The notes beneath the pieces were generated by a model. The model saw only the letters and a list, made by a program, of their open reading frames with translations. It ran no database searches and had not been told where the DNA came from. A stretch of DNA of 44,982 nt from a virus. The position numbers were made by a program, and so were the translations under genes. This document shows positions 4,967 to 26,769 of this stretch, one piece after another. The stretch spans positions 1 to 44,982 of the IMG/VR virus record IMGVR_UViG_3300037339_000394; one strand, 5' to 3'. The number at the start of each line of letters is the position of its first letter. Within the stretch, counting starts at the first letter, position 1.

Positions 4967-5208
4967 CGCTTCTCCTCGGCAAGCACTGGCCCTGGATCAC
5001 TCCCGAACGGTTGTTTTACGACCTCACCCTGGAGGATGTGCGTGCCTGCATCGAGCACGTCATCCGCTGGGATATGCCCGCGAACACGCGCGAGCAGGCT
5101 GAGGCGCAGGTCAAGGGACTGAACGAGTGGATCGCCCCGGGCGGCAAGCAGGATCTCTCCTGGCTTCAGAAGAACCGAATCGGCAAGGTGGTGAAAGCTC
5201 ATGGCTGA
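4505..5208 (+). CDS. Tail assembly chaperone, frameshifted (G-T-like) form
   Basis: Ribosomes that slip back one base at 4927-4933 leave the 4505 frame and continue to the stop at 5208, adding about 91 residues for a product of roughly 234. The downstream frame has no good start with a ribosome site, but its sequence (WRRVALLLGKHWPWITPERL then LEDVRACIEHVIRW) looks like real protein immediately after the slip site, strong support for programmed frameshifting. The long form should bind tape measure and tube protein during tail assembly, as gpGT does in lambda. Confidence 0.85.
4927..4933 (+). promoter_or_regulatory. Programmed -1 ribosomal frameshift site
   Basis: The heptamer A AAA AAG is in phase with the chaperone reading frame and lies within a run of nine A residues. 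It is the same type of slippery site as in E. coli dnaX. The slip moves translation into the frame that continues to 5208. Confidence 0.87.
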
Positions 5209-7084
5209 TTCCATTGTCGGGCGCCTGATCTACAAGATCACGGGCGACGTCTCGGATATCAAGAAATCTCTCACGAATACAGAGAAGCAGATCAAGAAGT
5301 TCACGAGGTTCGTGCAGTCCGCCGCCGGTCTCTTCGGTGCCGCTGCCGCGTTCAAGATGCTCGCGAACGTCGTGAAGAGTTTCGTGAACGAGGCGCTCGA
5401 AAGCGAGCAGGCGGAGCTGAAACTCGCGAGCGCGATGAAGATATCGGGGCAGTCAGCCGCCGGCCAGGTGAAGCAGCTCACGGGTCTCGCGAAGGCGCTC
5501 TCTCTCGTCACAACCTACACGGACGAGGAGACCGTCGCCGCCATGACGCTGTTGACGGAGACCGGCAACGTATCCGCGAAGGGCATGAGAGAGCTGATCC
5601 CGCTGGTGCAGGACATGGCGACGGGCCTCGGGATGGACCTCAATAGCGCAGCGACGGCGGTCTCGAAGGCGCTCGCCGGGAACGCGACCGGGCTCAATCG
5701 GCTGGGGGTGCAGTTCAAGAGCTCGAAGGACCCCGTCCAGCAGTTCAACAATATCGTCAAGGCGCTGACCGAGAACTTCGGCGGGATGTCCGAGGCGATG
5801 GCGAAATCTGCGGGCGGCGGGCTGAAGCAAATCACCATGCAGTTCGACGAGTTGAAAGAGGCGGTCGGCACCCGGCTGCTGCAGGCATTCAAGGGGACCA
5901 TCTCGGCGCTGTCCTCTCGGATCAAGGCCGACGTCGTACTCGGGATGAGCGTCTCGGATATCGGCAGCCCCGAAGAGGCGAAAGCGTACCTCAAAACGTT
6001 GCAGACCGAGCTCGTCAGGGTGAGTGAGGCCGCGAAGATAGCACGGCTCGCGCAGGCTGGTCTCGGCAGGTCGATGGTAACATCGAATGCCGTGATGACA
6101 GATCAGGATAAACGCGCCGCGGATCTGCAAAACAAGATCACCGCCCTCACCCGGTTCATGACCAATTGGAAAGATGTCGAAGCCTCCATGCCGCCGGTGC
6201 TTGCGAGCACCACGCGGTCCATCGAGGAACAGGCGAAGGCGGCGAAGACGGCCAGAGATGAAGCTGCCGCTGTCACGGACATGATCCTATGGCAGCTCGA
6301 CCAGGAGACGGCATCCTACCAAGAGGCCGAGGCCGCGCGCATCGCTTCCGAGGAAGCTCAGCAGGAAGCCCACGATCAGGCGGTGGAGCATACCCTGGAG
6401 AATCTTGCAGAGGAGGAGGAAGCCTACCGGAAAGCGGCTGATAAGCGAAAGCACATCGAGGAGGAGGCCGCGGACCAGATCCAGCAGATCCGCGAGGATA
6501 CTTTCTATTTCGCCATGGACCTTCTTTCCTCCCTCGGCGATCTACAGCAGGCGAAGCTGAATCATGATCTCGCGGAACTCACGGCGAAGCAGAAGGCCGA
6601 GCTCGCCTCTTTCAAGGGAACCGAGGCGCAGAAGCTCGCGCTGCAGGAAGACTTCGAGCAGGAGAAGGCGAAGCTCGAGTATGACGCGGCGCTGAAGAGC
6701 TGGCGGCTGCAGCTCGCCGCGGCGATCGTCAGCGGGGCGAAGGCTATCCTCTCGGGGTTCCAGACGCAGCCATTCATTCCCGCGGGTATCCTGGCGGGGG
6801 CCATGGCTACGGTTCTGGCGGGAGTACAGCTCGCCGCGATTCGCCAGGCGAAGCCGGTGCCCAGCTTCTCGACGGGCGCCGACTTCACCGTCCCGGCGGG
6901 CTACCCGAACGACAGCTTCCGGATGAACGCTGAGACTGGCGAGCATGTCCATATCGATCCGGCGGGGGGGGGCGGGGAGCCGATCCACGTCGTCGTCAAC
7001 CTCGACGGCAGGCCGATCCTCAACACTGTTGCCCGCGCCTCGCGCGATCGCCGCCTGCTGATCGACGCGCGCAGCGTGGTATAG
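5201..7084 (+). CDS. Tail tape measure protein
   Basis: 627 residues, ATG overlapping the end of the chaperone frame. The protein is long and mostly alpha-helical. It opens with a tape-measure-like DVSDIKKSLTNTEKQIKKF segment, has a hydrophobic stretch near residues 38-62, the conserved TLLTETGNVSAKGMRELIPLVQDMA region, long charged coiled coils (about 370-500) and hydrophobic segments near 515-550. Tape measures set tail length; at about 0.15 nm per residue this one predicts a short tail of roughly 95 nm (inference). The C-terminus includes a GGGGEPIHVVVNLDGRPI segment often seen at tape measure ends. Confidence 0.92.
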   Translation: MADSIVGRLIYKITGDVSDIKKSLTNTEKQIKKFTRFVQSAAGLFGAAAAFKMLANVVKSFVNEALESEQAELKLASAMKISGQSAAGQVKQLTGLAKALSLVTTYTDEETVAAMTLLTETGNVSAKGMRELIPLVQDMATGLGMDLNSAATAVSKALAGNATGLNRLGVQFKSSKDPVQQFNNIVKALTENFGGMSEAMAKSAGGGLKQITMQFDELKEAVGTRLLQAFKGTISALSSRIKADVVLGMSVSDIGSPEEAKAYLKTLQTELVRVSEAAKIARLAQAGLGRSMVTSNAVMTDQDKRAADLQNKITALTRFMTNWKDVEASMPPVLASTTRSIEEQAKAAKTARDEAAAVTDMILWQLDQETASYQEAEAARIASEEAQQEAHDQAVEHTLENLAEEEEAYRKAADKRKHIEEEAADQIQQIREDTFYFAMDLLSSLGDLQQAKLNHDLAELTAKQKAELASFKGTEAQKLALQEDFEQEKAKLEYDAALKSWRLQLAAAIVSGAKAILSGFQTQPFIPAGILAGAMATVLAGVQLAAIRQAKPVPSFSTGADFTVPAGYPNDSFRMNAETGEHVHIDPAGGGGEPIHVVVNLDGRPILNTVARASRDRRLLIDARSVV

Positions 7085-21945: not shown

Positions 21946-22329
21946 ATGGCCGCGTTCATCGTTGGCATCTGGCGCGCGCTGACCGCCACCGGCCGGCTGC
22001 TCTTCCTCGGCGCTACCGAGGCGTGGGGTTACTGGTCGGCGACGCTGCTGCTGCTATGCGTCGTGTTCTTCGCGGTGCACCTGGCTGGCGGCGTCTTCTG
22101 GAGGTTCATCGAGGGGCGGCTGCACCCGAAGGTTGCCAGCCCTGAGGCGCTCGCGCAACTGCGCCGCATCGTCCGCGAACTGAAAGCCGACCTCTACGAC
22201 TCGCAGCGTGCGCAGGAGAAACTAGCAGCGGAGAACGCCGAGCTGACCCGTGTCGTCGAGGTGGAGCGCAACTGGTCGCGCAACTGGAACGCCGACGCCG
22301 GCAGGGTCGCAGCGGGGGCGGCGAAGTGA
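21946..22329 (+). CDS. Membrane protein with cytoplasmic coiled coil
   Basis: 127 residues, RBS AGAGGGGAG. Hydrophobic segments at about residues 14-25 and 33-52 (ATLLLLCVVFFAVHLAGGV), then a charged coiled coil (60-110). Possibly a membrane-associated replication or host-takeover factor; no family recognised. Confidence 0.6.
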   Translation: MAAFIVGIWRALTATGRLLFLGATEAWGYWSATLLLLCVVFFAVHLAGGVFWRFIEGRLHPKVASPEALAQLRRIVRELKADLYDSQRAQEKLAAENAELTRVVEVERNWSRNWNADAGRVAAGAAK

Positions 22330-24620
22330 TGGAGCAGGCTTCCTATTCTGATTTTCTTTCATCAAAAAGAAACAGGACGGAGTATCACGGCATCGCCGTG
22401 GATGACGCAAGCATTCACCCCATGCTGTATCCGTTCCAGCGTGACATAGTTCGATGGGCGTGCCACAAGGGGAGGTGCGCCATCTTTCTCGACACCGGGC
22501 TCGGGAAGACTTTCATCCAGCTTGAATGGGCGCGCCTTCTCGGCGAGCGTACCATCATCATCGCGCCGCTATCAGTAACGCGACAGACGATCCGCGAGGC
22601 CGCGAAGATCGGCATAGAAGTGAAGTACATACGAAGCATGACCGATGTCGAGGGCATGTTTTCGATATGCAACTATGAGATGATCGACGCGCTCAATTTC
22701 TCGGCTTTCGGCGCCATCGTGCTAGATGAATCATCTATCTTGAAATCCATCGGAGGAGTGACGCGGAGAACGCTCACGGACCGGTGCCAGAGCATCAAGT
22801 ATCGTCTATGCTGCACGGCCACTCCGGCGCCGAACGATCAAAGTGAGATCGGGAACCATGCCGAGTTCCTCGGGATATGCAAGGGCGTCGAGATGCTCGC
22901 TATGTTCTTTATCCACGCGAACAAACAGGACGAGCGCGAGGAATCGGACGGAAGTATCACCCGAAAAAAGCACAGCAACAAACAGGGCCAGGAGTGGCGA
23001 CTGAAGAATCATGCGCGCGGCAAGTTCTACGAGTGGATGGCGTCGTGGGCTATCGCCATGACACGGCCCGGCGAGCTTGGTTATTCCGACGAAGGCTACA
23101 CGCTTCCAAAACTAACAATCGAGCCGGTCATCGTCGAGTCGGATTATGTGCCGGACGGGGAACTGTTTCACTCTAAACTGTCCGGGATAACCGACAGAAC
23201 GAATGTACGACGCTCTACCATACCCGACCGGCTCGACAGGGTTGACGGGGTTATGAAGAAACACACCGGCCAGTGGATCATATGGGCCGGGCTACAGGCC
23301 GAGACCGATGCGCTGTCGGGGTGGATCAGGTCGGGTCGGAGAGAAGTGAAGGGCGACGATCCGCAGGAACAAAAGATAACCGACCTTCAGGATTTCCAGG
23401 ATGGACAGTATGACATCCTTATAACGAAGCCGAAGATATGCGGGTTCGGGATGAACTTCCAGAATGCGCACAACATGATCTTCTTCGGACTGAGCGATTC
23501 GTGGGAATCGTACTACCAGTGCATCCGCCGCGAATGGCGATACGGTCAAAAGAGGCCGGTGAACGTATACATCATCATGTCTGCTGCTGAGCAGGAGATT
23601 TGGGATAACGTCAAGCGAAAGGAACGGGTGGCGAAACTCATGACGAGCGAACTGCTGAAAAATATCAAGGTATATGAGCGGAGGGAGCTCGGCATGGAAA
23701 GGGGACCCGAAGTCGACGGGGAAGCGTTCTGCGAACCGGTCACCGGATCGAATTTCAAGGCCATTCATGGCGATTCGTGTTTAGAGCTTCCGAAGATCGC
23801 CGAGAACAGCATCGACCTTTCCGTGTACTCGCCGCCGTTCGCCGATCTGTACACCTATACCAATAGCGAGAAGGATCTCGGAAACTCGAAGGATTGGGGC
23901 GAGTTCTTCACTCACTATTCATTCATTATCCGCGAGGTTCTGCGCGTAACGAAGCCGGGCCGTCTGACGTGCGTTCACTCCTCTGACATCCCGGCCATGG
24001 AAGTCAAGGATGGATACATAGGAATGAAGGACTTCCCCGGTGAAGTTGTAAGGGCTTACGAGCGGGAGGGATGGGTGTTCGTCGGGAGGGCATTCATCCA
24101 GAAGAACCCGCAGGCACAGGCAATCCGCGTCAAGAGCAAGGCGCTGCTATTCGCGCAGCTTCGGAAGGATTCATCACACTCGCGGCCGGCCATCATCGAT
24201 CAGATTCTAATATTCAAGAAGCCGGGGGAGAACAATACGCAGATACGGCCGGTTGAGAATGGCGAGATGGATAATGAGACGTGGATCAATTGGGCTCACG
24301 GTATCTGGTTCGGTATACAAGAGTCTGACGTGCTACGGTACGGCGCGGCTCGAGATGCTGACGATGAAAAGCATATCTGCCCGTTGCAGCTCGGCGTGAT
24401 CGAGCGGTGCATCAAACTCTATTCAAATCCGGGAGAAACCGTACTGACTCCTTTCATGGGTATCGGTTCGGAGATATACCAGGCCGTTCGTTTCCGTAGG
24501 AATGGAATAGGAATCGAATTAAAGAAGTCATATTTCAAGATAGCGGTGCAAAACCTAGAATATGCGCAGCGTCACTTCATCGGCCAAGATTTATTCGCGA
24601 CCAATGGAGTCGCGAGTTGA
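22326..24620 (+). CDS. SNF2-type helicase fused to DNA methyltransferase
   Basis: 764 residues. Helicase part: Walker A LDTGLGKT (around residues 55-62), LDES at 133-136 in place of DEAH, TATP at 164-167, and the C-terminal helicase core with GFGMNFQNA and RREWRYGQKRPV (400-411). Methyltransferase part from about 475: VYSPPFADLY (SPPF motif, 502-505) and TPFMGIGS (708-715) followed by IGIELKKSYF, the beta-class amino-methyltransferase order in which the SPPF motif precedes the SAM loop. It probably translocates on DNA while methylating adenine or cytosine, protecting phage DNA or modifying it. Codons are distinctly more AT-rich than in flanking genes, a sign of separate acquisition. Confidence 0.9.
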   Translation: MMEQASYSDFLSSKRNRTEYHGIAVDDASIHPMLYPFQRDIVRWACHKGRCAIFLDTGLGKTFIQLEWARLLGERTIIIAPLSVTRQTIREAAKIGIEVKYIRSMTDVEGMFSICNYEMIDALNFSAFGAIVLDESSILKSIGGVTRRTLTDRCQSIKYRLCCTATPAPNDQSEIGNHAEFLGICKGVEMLAMFFIHANKQDEREESDGSITRKKHSNKQGQEWRLKNHARGKFYEWMASWAIAMTRPGELGYSDEGYTLPKLTIEPVIVESDYVPDGELFHSKLSGITDRTNVRRSTIPDRLDRVDGVMKKHTGQWIIWAGLQAETDALSGWIRSGRREVKGDDPQEQKITDLQDFQDGQYDILITKPKICGFGMNFQNAHNMIFFGLSDSWESYYQCIRREWRYGQKRPVNVYIIMSAAEQEIWDNVKRKERVAKLMTSELLKNIKVYERRELGMERGPEVDGEAFCEPVTGSNFKAIHGDSCLELPKIAENSIDLSVYSPPFADLYTYTNSEKDLGNSKDWGEFFTHYSFIIREVLRVTKPGRLTCVHSSDIPAMEVKDGYIGMKDFPGEVVRAYEREGWVFVGRAFIQKNPQAQAIRVKSKALLFAQLRKDSSHSRPAIIDQILIFKKPGENNTQIRPVENGEMDNETWINWAHGIWFGIQESDVLRYGAARDADDEKHICPLQLGVIERCIKLYSNPGETVLTPFMGIGSEIYQAVRFRRNGIGIELKKSYFKIAVQNLEYAQRHFIGQDLFATNGVAS

Positions 24621-24752
24621 GCCCCCACGCCTCCCCCAGCGGCCCCACGGCGCATCCTGTCCCGGTGGCGCATGATTCCACGTCCCCCACCACGATCGCC
24701 CGGCGCCGCCCGAAAACTCGGCCAGCCGGCCGGCTTCCCACGGAGGGCTGAG

Positions 24753-25733
24753 GTGACGCGAGAGACCTGCATCCAAATCGTTGACTGGGACGCGCACTAC
24801 GAGAACAACCGCACCCGCGAGCTGAAAAAGATGGCATGGGTACCGATGCCAAACAGCCACGACGGAGACGGGTACACGCAGCTGCTTTCACACCCGAACG
24901 GTGCCGCTCATTTCGGCGCATGGTGCGCACTCGTGGAAGTCGCATCGAGGTGCGAGCCACGCGGAACGCTTCTCAGGAAGACCGTCAGAATCCCGCAGGA
25001 GGGTGCGGTAATCCCGCAGGTGCCTGCGCAGGGGGTCCGGGAGGCCCGCGAGAGTCACAATTCGTCCTCCTTGGCCCGCATGACGCGCATCCCTGAGGAG
25101 TTATGGGATGAGGTCCTCCCGCGTCTCGTATCTATAGGCTGGATAAGGTACTACACGATCCCGCAGGAGGGTGCGGTAATCCCGCAGGTGCCTGCGGAAA
25201 TCCCGCAGGATGGTGCGCAGAAGGGAAGGGAAAGAAAGAAAGAAGGGAAGGGAGAGAAGGGAACGACCGCACCCCCCGCGGCTGCGGCCCTGACGGCCGC
25301 GCCGCAGGTGACGTCCGTCGACGGAGCCATTGCCGCGCTGAGGACCGTCAACCGTAACACGACCCTCCAGGCCGTCGACCAGCCAGCCTTCTCCGCTATC
25401 CTCGCCGCCTACGCTCTCGACCAGGTGCTCGCGGCCTACGCCGACCATCAGCGCCGCAAGCCTGGGAAGTCGTTGCACTGGTTCCTGGTCGACTTCCACG
25501 AGCACCTCGAGCGGGTGCTTTCCGAGCCTAGCAAGAAGCCATCGGCAACCGAGCCCCCCGCTACCGCCGACGATCGGCTTGCAGCTCGTGAACGCGAGGA
25601 GGCGGAGCACCCGGAGCTCGTTGCCGAAGCCGAGGCGAAGGCGGCCGAGTTGAAAGCGAAGATGAAGGGCGGCAAGCCAACGCCAGCCGACGATGACTGG
25701 GAGGCCGTGGATCCAAAGGAGGCTGGCTGGTGA
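24753..25733 (+). CDS. Phage replication initiator (O-like) with iterons in its gene
   Basis: 326 residues from the GTG at 24753 (GGAGGG upstream); an ATG at 24672 would add an implausible proline/arginine-rich extension. Residues ~10-150 have the winged-helix replisome organiser pattern: ELKKMAWVPMPNSHDGDGYTQL, a helical ALVEVASRC and RIPEELWDEVLPRLVSIGW. The centre contains a lysine-rich linker and the C-terminal half is helical (LHWFLVDFHEHLERVL). The coding sequence itself holds five 21-bp iterons and a 45-base purine tract. As in lambda O, the protein probably binds these repeats to start replication and recruits a helicase from the host. Confidence 0.78.
   Translation: MTRETCIQIVDWDAHYENNRTRELKKMAWVPMPNSHDGDGYTQLLSHPNGAAHFGAWCALVEVASRCEPRGTLLRKTVRIPQEGAVIPQVPAQGVREARESHNSSSLARMTRIPEELWDEVLPRLVSIGWIRYYTIPQEGAVIPQVPAEIPQDGAQKGRERKKEGKGEKGTTAPPAAAALTAAPQVTSVDGAIAALRTVNRNTTLQAVDQPAFSAILAAYALDQVLAAYADHQRRKPGKSLHWFLVDFHEHLERVLSEPSKKPSATEPPATADDRLAAREREEAEHPELVAEAEAKAAELKAKMKGGKPTPADDDWEAVDPKEAGW
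24989..25209. repeat. Five iterons (21-bp unit), candidate replication origin
   Basis: The core (A/G)ATCCCGCAGG occurs at 24989, 25010, 25157, 25178 and 25199. Starts are 21 bases apart within each cluster, and the clusters are 147 (7 x 21) bases apart. The rest of each unit is also related, as GAGGGTGCGGT or TGCCTGCG. This arrangement in an initiator gene matches origin iterons. Confidence 0.85.
25219..25263 (+). repeat. 45-base all-purine, near-mirror tract beside iterons
   Basis: Every base from 25219 to 25263 is A or G, built from GGGAA and AAAG units arranged almost as a mirror repeat about its middle. Its position just after the last iteron suggests a DNA-unwinding or triplex-prone element of the origin. 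Confidence 0.75.
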
Positions 25734-26077
25734 AGACGGCCTGGTCGAAGTCGGACATCGAGCGGTTCCTCGCGTTGAACGACCGGCGCAAGGCTTCTGA
25801 CCTCGCGCAACTCCTCGATAGGACGCAGCCCGCCATCGAGGGCATGCGCCGAAAGCTGAAGCGGTTGCGGGAGCTCGGGATTACCAGGCGCCCAGAGCTC
25901 AAGCGGCTGCTCGCTCTCAACGAGGGATTCGTTCAGAAGCACACTCTGGCGCAGATCCGCGCGAGGGCTCGGCAGTCGAGCATCCCCGTTCGCCCGTTCC
26001 TTCGCCGCGGTCTGCGCTATCAGCGGCCTGGTCTGGTACATGCGCACTCTCGGCTTCCGCAGGGAGGAGCAGCATGA
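25730..26077 (+). CDS. Unknown helix-turn-helix-like protein
   Basis: 115 residues from GTG overlapping the initiator stop. The region KASDLAQLLDRTQPAIEGMRRKLKRL reads like an SANT/HTH-type DNA-binding helix set. The C-terminus is arginine-rich. Its stop overlaps the ParB-like gene start. May aid replication; not established. Confidence 0.6.
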   Translation: MKTAWSKSDIERFLALNDRRKASDLAQLLDRTQPAIEGMRRKLKRLRELGITRRPELKRLLALNEGFVQKHTLAQIRARARQSSIPVRPFLRRGLRYQRPGLVHAHSRLPQGGAA

Positions 26078-26769
26078 AGGTCCGCGAGGTACCGCTCGAG
26101 AAGATCTTCGTCACGAAGAACGTGAGATTCGACACCGACGAAGAACTCGGGGAACTCATCGCGAGCACTGAGCGCATGCTGCTGCAGCCGATCGGAGTAT
26201 ACCCGCGGGGGGAAAGGTACGAGCTCGTGTGGGGCCACCGCAGACTCCGCGCCGCCCAGGCGAACAATGAGCCGACCATCGCAGCGCATATCCTCGAAAA
26301 CATCTCAGAGAGCGACATCCCGATCATCAAGCTCCAGGAGAACATGGTCCGAAAGCAGTTGACGACCGAAGAGGTTGTCGCTGCTGCCGACGAGATAAAG
26401 AAGCGGAGGCCCGAGCTCAACGACGCGGCGATCGACACGCTGCTCGGCAAGCGCAAGGGTTATCTCAGCTACCACCGCAGCACGCTGAAGACCTACCAGT
26501 GGCTCGCATCCAAGGGGCTGAAGAAGGAGCACCTAGTAGCGATGACCGGCGACGAGCTGCGGGAACTGCGATCGAAGCTCGAGGGATCTGAGAAAACTGC
26601 TGACACCCGAAAGCACACCTTTCATCGTGGCGAGCGCGTGCCCCGGGCAGGCTTCACGATTCTCACGCCAGACGGGCCGAACGTCGTCGTGGTCTGCTCG
26701 TGCTGCGCAGAGAAGCGTCGTGTCGTGAACGCCCTTCGCAGGCTGCGCGGTGACAGGAGAGCGCGTTGA
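26074..26769 (+). CDS. ParB/Srx-fold protein (ParB-like)
   Basis: 231 residues. The N-terminal ParB-like nuclease domain has VPLEKIFVTKNVRFDTDEEL, IGVYPRGERYELVWGHRRLRAA (GHRRLRA at 54-60) and DIPIIKLQENMVRKQLTTEE; the following helical region reads like a ParB DNA-binding domain. A cysteine pair (CSCC) is near the C-terminus. No ParA is seen, so a plasmid-partition system is incomplete. It may regulate or bind DNA, or hydrolyse nucleotides as ParB-fold proteins do. Confidence 0.85.
   Translation: MKVREVPLEKIFVTKNVRFDTDEELGELIASTERMLLQPIGVYPRGERYELVWGHRRLRAAQANNEPTIAAHILENISESDIPIIKLQENMVRKQLTTEEVVAAADEIKKRRPELNDAAIDTLLGKRKGYLSYHRSTLKTYQWLASKGLKKEHLVAMTGDELRELRSKLEGSEKTADTRKHTFHRGERVPRAGFTILTPDGPNVVVVCSCCAEKRRVVNALRRLRGDRRAR

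Follow-up and report, generated by a model that had tools for sequence, protein, structure and literature searches.

The window considered here is a virus record of 44,982 nt (IMGVR_UViG_3300037339_000394) with genes of a tailed phage (terminase, portal, major head protein). Its initiator gene is located on the plus strand at positions 24753–25733 and encodes a protein of 326 amino acids; an in-frame ATG is also present at 24672, and the best reading is a GTG start following GGAGG. RecE/RecT-like recombination genes and a helicase-methylase are found upstream. The latter is encoded directly upstream of the initiator gene (22326–24620) as a protein of 764 amino acids, with helicase domains on its N-terminal side and an N6/N4 DNA methylase on its C-terminal side. 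Two genes 3′ of the initiator gene, at 26074–26769, a ParB_N-domain protein is encoded, which is also present in 3 of 20 related records. Among the window ORFs scanned, none was recognisable as a gene for a helicase loader or a DnaB-type helicase; host DnaA boxes (TTWTNCACA) are absent from the window, and the GC skew of the window displays no clear switch at the candidate origin site.

The initiator protein is composed of an N-terminal winged-helix domain, a linker encoded by iterons, and a variable C-terminal domain. AlphaFold2 (AF2) predicts the winged-helix (wHTH) domain with confidence (pLDDT above 90 across most of it), while most iteron-encoded segments are predicted to be disordered (pLDDT about 40–67). 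The protein matched no replication model in Pfam and PHROG, and a Foldseek search of the model against the PDB alone returned no significant match. VIA-align of the AF2 model lists the N-domains of the RepA initiators 4pql, 5kbj and 4pta in its top rows, one of them as a DNA complex, with weak Z scores of 5.4–5.9 (below 8) and an rmsd of 4.9–5.3 over 80–82 residues. Judged from the model, plasmid RepA N-domains may be the top fold neighbours of this protein, a likeness that is suggestive but weak.

Iterons and purine tract within the gene

An earlier reading of the sequence alone had proposed five iterons, phased at 21 bp, inside this gene. The 11-mer RATCCCGCAGG is indeed found exactly at 24989, 25010, 25157, 25178 and 25199 on the plus strand, at spacings of 21, 147 (7 × 21), 21 and 21 bp, and no further mismatch-free copy exists anywhere in the 44,982 nt. 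The positions are thus real; the true unit, however, is the dyad CGCA-N6-TGCG, which occurs in six copies, the one at 24941 having been overlooked. All six perfect dyads of the whole window lie within 24941–25217, a stretch of 277 nt in one gene, and their spacings of 53, 21, 147, 21 and 21 bp are all near multiples of the helical repeat of 10.5 bp. First-order Markov simulations of the window yielded a mean of 1.7 dyads, with a maximum of 5 in total and of 2 per 277-nt span.

Dyad 1 (CGCATCGAGGTGCG, plus strand, 24941–24954) coincides with the V-A-S-R-C codons of the wHTH core, where codon choice is conserved in relatives; its arms extend to 5 bp (TCGCA/TGCGA, spanning 24940–24955). At 24960–24977 (plus strand) the RGTLLR codons hold the decayed remainder of a second conserved dyad. 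The window reads CGCGGAACGCTTCTCAGG at this place, and relatives have CGC GGC ACC CTC CTG CGG, that is GGCA-N6-TGCG, 22 bp after dyad 1. Compared with the four nearest relatives, the window carries an insertion of 63 bp (21 amino acids) at 24981–25043 on the plus strand, inside the wHTH domain. It contains two iteron dyads, CGCAGGAGGGTGCG at 24994–25007 and CGCAGGTGCCTGCG at 25015–25028 (both plus strand), which form a loop cluster within this domain. The linker array follows on the same strand with CGCAGGAGGGTGCG at 25162–25175, CGCAGGTGCCTGCG at 25183–25196 and CGCAGGATGGTGCG at 25204–25217. The two iterons of the insertion are an exact copy of 39 nt of this array, and this duplication (24990–25028 equals 25158–25196) lies behind the two clusters. 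A degraded dyad 1 together with iterons in nearby loops is displayed by several relatives (L111, L116, L118, L122, L135). The cluster gap of exactly 7 × 21 bp, to which the sequence-only reading had pointed, is present in the window and is shared by only two relatives, L118 and L135; as a rule for the family it was rejected.

Directly after the array, at 25219–25263 on the plus strand, stands an all-purine tract of exactly 45 nt (47% GC), as had been claimed, which is a candidate unwinding element or single-strand binding repeat. It is the sole purine or pyrimidine run of at least 18 nt in the window, the least stable 45-mer of the initiator gene, and in the top 5% of the window. The description of this tract as nearly mirror-symmetric did not hold: it scores 7, and shuffles score 5.7 on average (p = 0.30). 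Since mirror symmetry is at the level of chance and many relatives carry GGAAC or GAA repeats instead, the formation of triplex DNA is unsupported, and this reading was rejected. That the tract replaces the usual AT-rich segment was overstated: the AT-rich element of lambda is itself 73% purine and contains the longest purine run of gene O, so that the parallel with lambda is closer than first assumed, and the real difference is GC content.

The initiator family and selection on its DNA

Relatives of the initiator were found in viral contigs and in the genomes of Verrucomicrobia LW23, a Hydrogenedentes MAG and a Rhodopirellula MAG; where hosts are known, they are Verrucomicrobia, Planctomycetes and Hydrogenedentes. 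The family shares the motif string W-x3-[YF]ENNRTR-...-VPxPNKHDGDGY-...-VASKC-...-RGTLLR-...-wHTH. The C-terminal domain behind this module varies between Phg_2220_C (4 of 18 relatives scanned) and domains matched by PHROG families named 'replication initiation protein', 'O-like' and 'primosomal protein'. Phage_rep_org_N (PF09681) was matched weakly by 2 of the 18 relatives (best 7e-4), members scanned singly staying below the curated cut-off, and not by the window protein. Genes for DnaB, a primase-helicase fusion or a DnaC/IstB-like ATPase lie directly downstream in 16 of 20 relatives scanned, a count that is not a rate because the 20 genes were picked as likely candidates. In three relatives (L019 4983–6053, L131 4911–6158, L133 4938–6087), the winged-helix domain is followed by an inserted segment that resembles a zinc domain of the HNH type (CQWC ... 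ILAHH ... C-x2-C-H).

No relatives among cultured phages were obtained by tblastn with the window protein, and a first scan of genome contigs with a narrow alignment returned nothing. A search of cultured phages with a family member (L068) gave mostly matches to the C-terminal domain, plus distant Vibrio phages. One of these, Vibrio phage 1.082.O (L148, 2501–3259), carries a distant relative annotated as 'hypothetical protein', with a gene for a P-loop NTPase behind it. Downstream of its N-domain, AGTCATGACT-type repeats precede purine-rich AGATA/AGAATA repeats, which is the same layout with different sites. The sequenced Verrucomicrobia bacterium LW23 harbours two near-identical copies of the initiator region (L144 and L145, around 5001–5900), one of them with a DnaC/IstB-like ATPase behind it. 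IMG/VR contains very similar or identical stretches (L106, L109). These LW23 prophages are a possible host system for experiments. A literature search on this initiator family, by name or host, retrieved nothing.

Dyad density amounts to 2.52 per kb in 55 related genes versus 0.037 per kb in 483 kb of flanking sequence, a 68-fold difference. Sorted by codon phase, 76 copies encode PQEGA and its relatives, 40 encode PAPACG or VASKCD, and 3 use the third frame; for example, the window has IPQEGA, L017 has NPAPSC and L068 has KPAGRCG. As the dyads are kept in different reading frames and are denser than in the flanks, selection acts on the DNA. Among 52 non-redundant initiator genes, taken from viral contigs and from genomes of PVC-type bacteria, 119 dyads were counted, compared to a mean of 9.2 (maximum 17) after synonymous codon shuffling within each gene. 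A scan of conserved codon columns that was blind to the motif ranked VA of VASKC (GTC GCA) and all six RGTLLR codons at or near the top; these two fixed dyads represent the strongest departures in codon choice among conserved columns. Conservation at synonymous sites had been set beforehand as part of the refuting test, and it showed the iterons to be kept beyond the requirement of the protein, by the shuffling counts as well as by biased codon choice.

Close spacings between dyads are exactly 21 bp in 40 of 41 cases, and longer gaps display a phasing of about 10.5 bp (R = 0.5, with related genes and gaps not all being independent). When IMG/VR was scanned with DNA only, dyad pairs at 21 bp fell in or adjoined the family in 29 of 100 loci, compared to 1 of 91 loci for pairs at 24 bp, this one being a family member with a 24-bp gap. 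In 25 of 52 genes, namely that of the window and 24 others, the purine tract goes beyond what shuffled synonymous codons produce (p ≤ 0.01); in relatives it is often a tandem repeat of the GGAAC, GGAAG or GAA type, and L110, L127 and L135 display significant asymmetry on the opposite strand. The purine tract next to the array is partly conserved across relatives.

CGCA-N6-TGCG is absent from 14 of the 52 family members, several of which have variant dyads, often at the same places (CGGCA-N6-TGCCG in L112, GGCA/TGCC in L103, and a GTCA type in L143 and L146). An acidic residue follows ENNRT[RK] in 33 of 34 members of the CGCA type and in 2 of 14 others; Fisher's test gives p = 1.6e-8, uncorrected for the roughly 1,700 tests made. 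On the tree, this covariation amounts to 1 independent pair on supported branches and to 5–6 on all branches; because the tree allows too few independent changes, it is suggestive only. We treat this residue as a lead for a possible specificity determinant, and not as a result. We put forward, as a tentative and rather doubtful model, that in this family the initiator's own recognition site would be written both into the linker and into codons for the folded DNA-binding domain, placing site and protein under a double constraint. Where fixed dyads decay, as in the window, new iterons would appear in another permissive loop, half-site changes (CGCA to GGCA or GTCA) would go along with the residue next to ENNRT, and GGAAN-type repeats would be a single-strand element for the initiator.

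Dyad clusters directly after an HTH were also observed in other genes. L153 (identical to L161 and L162) carries a CGCA-N6-TGCG cluster at 5035–5102 in a different phage HTH gene, with a different N-domain (TQGTPTAKLIAVLIASGITDTKELAEITGLKIRAVQ...) and a C-terminal domain that matches PHROG primosomal and replication initiation families. In-gene clusters of the same dyad also directly follow the HTH, with an N-domain of this kind (TQGTPTAKLIAVLIASGITDTKELAEITGLKIRAVQ...), in L180 (589–688), L201 (13928–14027) and L219 (6068–6188), and L222 (3217–3273) has an in-gene dyad cluster directly after the HTH with yet another N-domain. In-gene origins of this type may be more widespread.

The candidate origin and its alternatives

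The locus combines tandem sites in an initiator gene that are conserved as DNA with an adjacent, locally unstable and strand-asymmetric tract, which are two features of an in-gene iteron origin such as lambda ori. We consider it very probable that the region 24941–25263 is the replication origin of the phage, placed inside its own initiator gene, and that the winged-helix initiator binds the iterons in dimeric form. The proposal of an in-gene origin resembling that of lambda O is strongly supported by comparison, through the wHTH fold, the conservation of the iterons as DNA, and the initiator C-domains and replication neighbours of relatives. The identification of a winged-helix initiator gains from the confidently predicted N-domain, from the initiator C-domains of relatives, and from their DnaB, primase-helicase or DnaC-like neighbours.

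With regard to mechanism, the winged-helix N-domain would bind CGCA-N6-TGCG iterons two helical turns (21 bp) apart, probably as one dimer per dyad, and several bound dimers could build an O-some-like complex, by which the DNA would be wrapped or bent. Such a complex may strain the adjacent purine tract, which would melt, and the variable C-terminal domain could then recruit the replicative helicase or its loader. We infer all of these steps, from binding and dimerisation up to the recruitment of helicase or loader.

Other explanations of the repeats were considered. They might exist at the level of the protein, as a heptapeptide linker repeat (IPQEGAx) of which the DNA pattern is a mere by-product; the period in the window, 21 nt or 7 codons, and the predicted disorder of the encoded segments would fit. 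Relatives, however, preserve the DNA dyad in other frames, where it encodes other peptides, and it is lost when synonymous codons are shuffled (119 versus 9.2). It is also found in the folded core, in codons whose choice is biased, so that this explanation appears extremely unlikely. The dyads could instead be operators of a repressor or autoregulation sites of the initiator, without any origin. Dyad sites suit dimeric regulators, and one copy in L001 lies 59 bp upstream of a mapped open frame; yet nearly all copies are located within coding sequence and not at promoters, and tandem 21-bp arrays by a melting-prone tract in an initiator gene match known origins. We regard operators without an origin as quite improbable. 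A dual role of the dyads in origin function and regulation is possible.

Partition is another process in which such sites might serve, given the ParB_N-domain gene two genes downstream, whose product would read the dyads as parS-like sites. ParB_N was detected in only 4 of 21 dyad-bearing records, many of which are fragments, and the dyads track the initiator gene instead; ParB was rejected as the reader of the dyads, and parS-like sites at this locus are barely conceivable. It is known that iteron arrays of plasmids can act as control sites. The repeats may accordingly bind the initiator mainly for limiting replication by handcuffing or titration, with the true start elsewhere. However, an asymmetric and locally least stable tract is conserved beside the array in many relatives, as at lambda ori, which renders a mainly limiting role highly improbable. 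An origin within 24941–25263 is hence the reading that we prefer.

If so, the initiator gene is a protein code and a candidate replication origin at once. In-gene origins are known so far from few model phages and plasmids, and the family offers dozens of natural variants differing in the set, reading frame, position and sequence of their sites, by which the co-evolution of initiator and origin may be tested directly. The pattern also provides a sequence signature by which origins can be sought in uncultured phages of PVC-type bacteria, and it clearly exemplifies a functional DNA element that is kept via synonymous codon choice inside a folded domain.

Comparison with known systems

The kind of system described here is already known; new are the initiator family, the dyad, its placement in multiple frames, and sites in codons of a folded DNA-binding domain. 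Lambda O binds inverted-repeat iterons as dimers, and unwinding requires at least two iterons together with the AT-rich region (PMC7466680). As in lambda and in the O genes of Stx phages, the candidate origin lies in the middle of the initiator gene, the iterons are inverted repeats (imperfect ones in lambda), and the array is followed directly on its 3′ side by an asymmetric tract, easily melted in lambda and a candidate for melting here, which is likewise purine-biased in lambda (73%). In both cases the protein becomes longer with additional iterons, by 13 amino acids in Stx phage O with 6 iterons (PMC7466680) and by 21 amino acids for two iterons here. In contrast, the iterons of lambda are 18-bp units 20–24 bp apart, and not CGCA-N6-TGCG at exactly 21 bp; here, sites are also placed in codons of the folded DNA-binding domain, and the tract has 47% GC. 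PF04492 (Phage_rep_O) matched neither the window protein nor its relatives, lambda O itself scoring 6e-36, and hhalign of the family versus lambda O gave a probability of 2.4% over 31 HTH columns. Judged by these profile comparisons, the family does not appear to be recognisably related to lambda O.

The pSK41-type initiators of the RepA_N group share the winged-helix N-domain, sites (Rep boxes) in the centre of their own rep gene, and a variable C-terminal domain. pSK41 Rep uses its N-domain to bind boxes that lie in its own gene, the linker encoded by the origin is dispensable, and a chimaera with an N-domain of the phage type is known (PMC5703833). Differences are the dyad sites described here, some of them upstream of the linker, and the setting of a phage versus a plasmid. 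The RepA_N Pfam domain was not matched by any member scanned, and a PDB sequence search gave no match to Rep at E ≤ 1. Likened by description, gp38 of phage SPP1 has its sites within its own gene as well, binding direct repeats of oriL inside gene 38 with an AT-rich DUE (PMC6316719); SPP1 possesses a second origin, oriR, whereas no second dyad cluster is present in the window. Replisome organisers of Gram-positive phages are linked to the family through the Phg_2220_C domain of 4 of 18 relatives and the 2 weak matches to Phage_rep_org_N, whereas the window protein matches neither, and the hosts, where known, are Verrucomicrobia, Planctomycetes and Hydrogenedentes. By analogy, the system would work like lambda O, SPP1 gp38 or pSK41 Rep, in what present matches suggest to be a family of its own.
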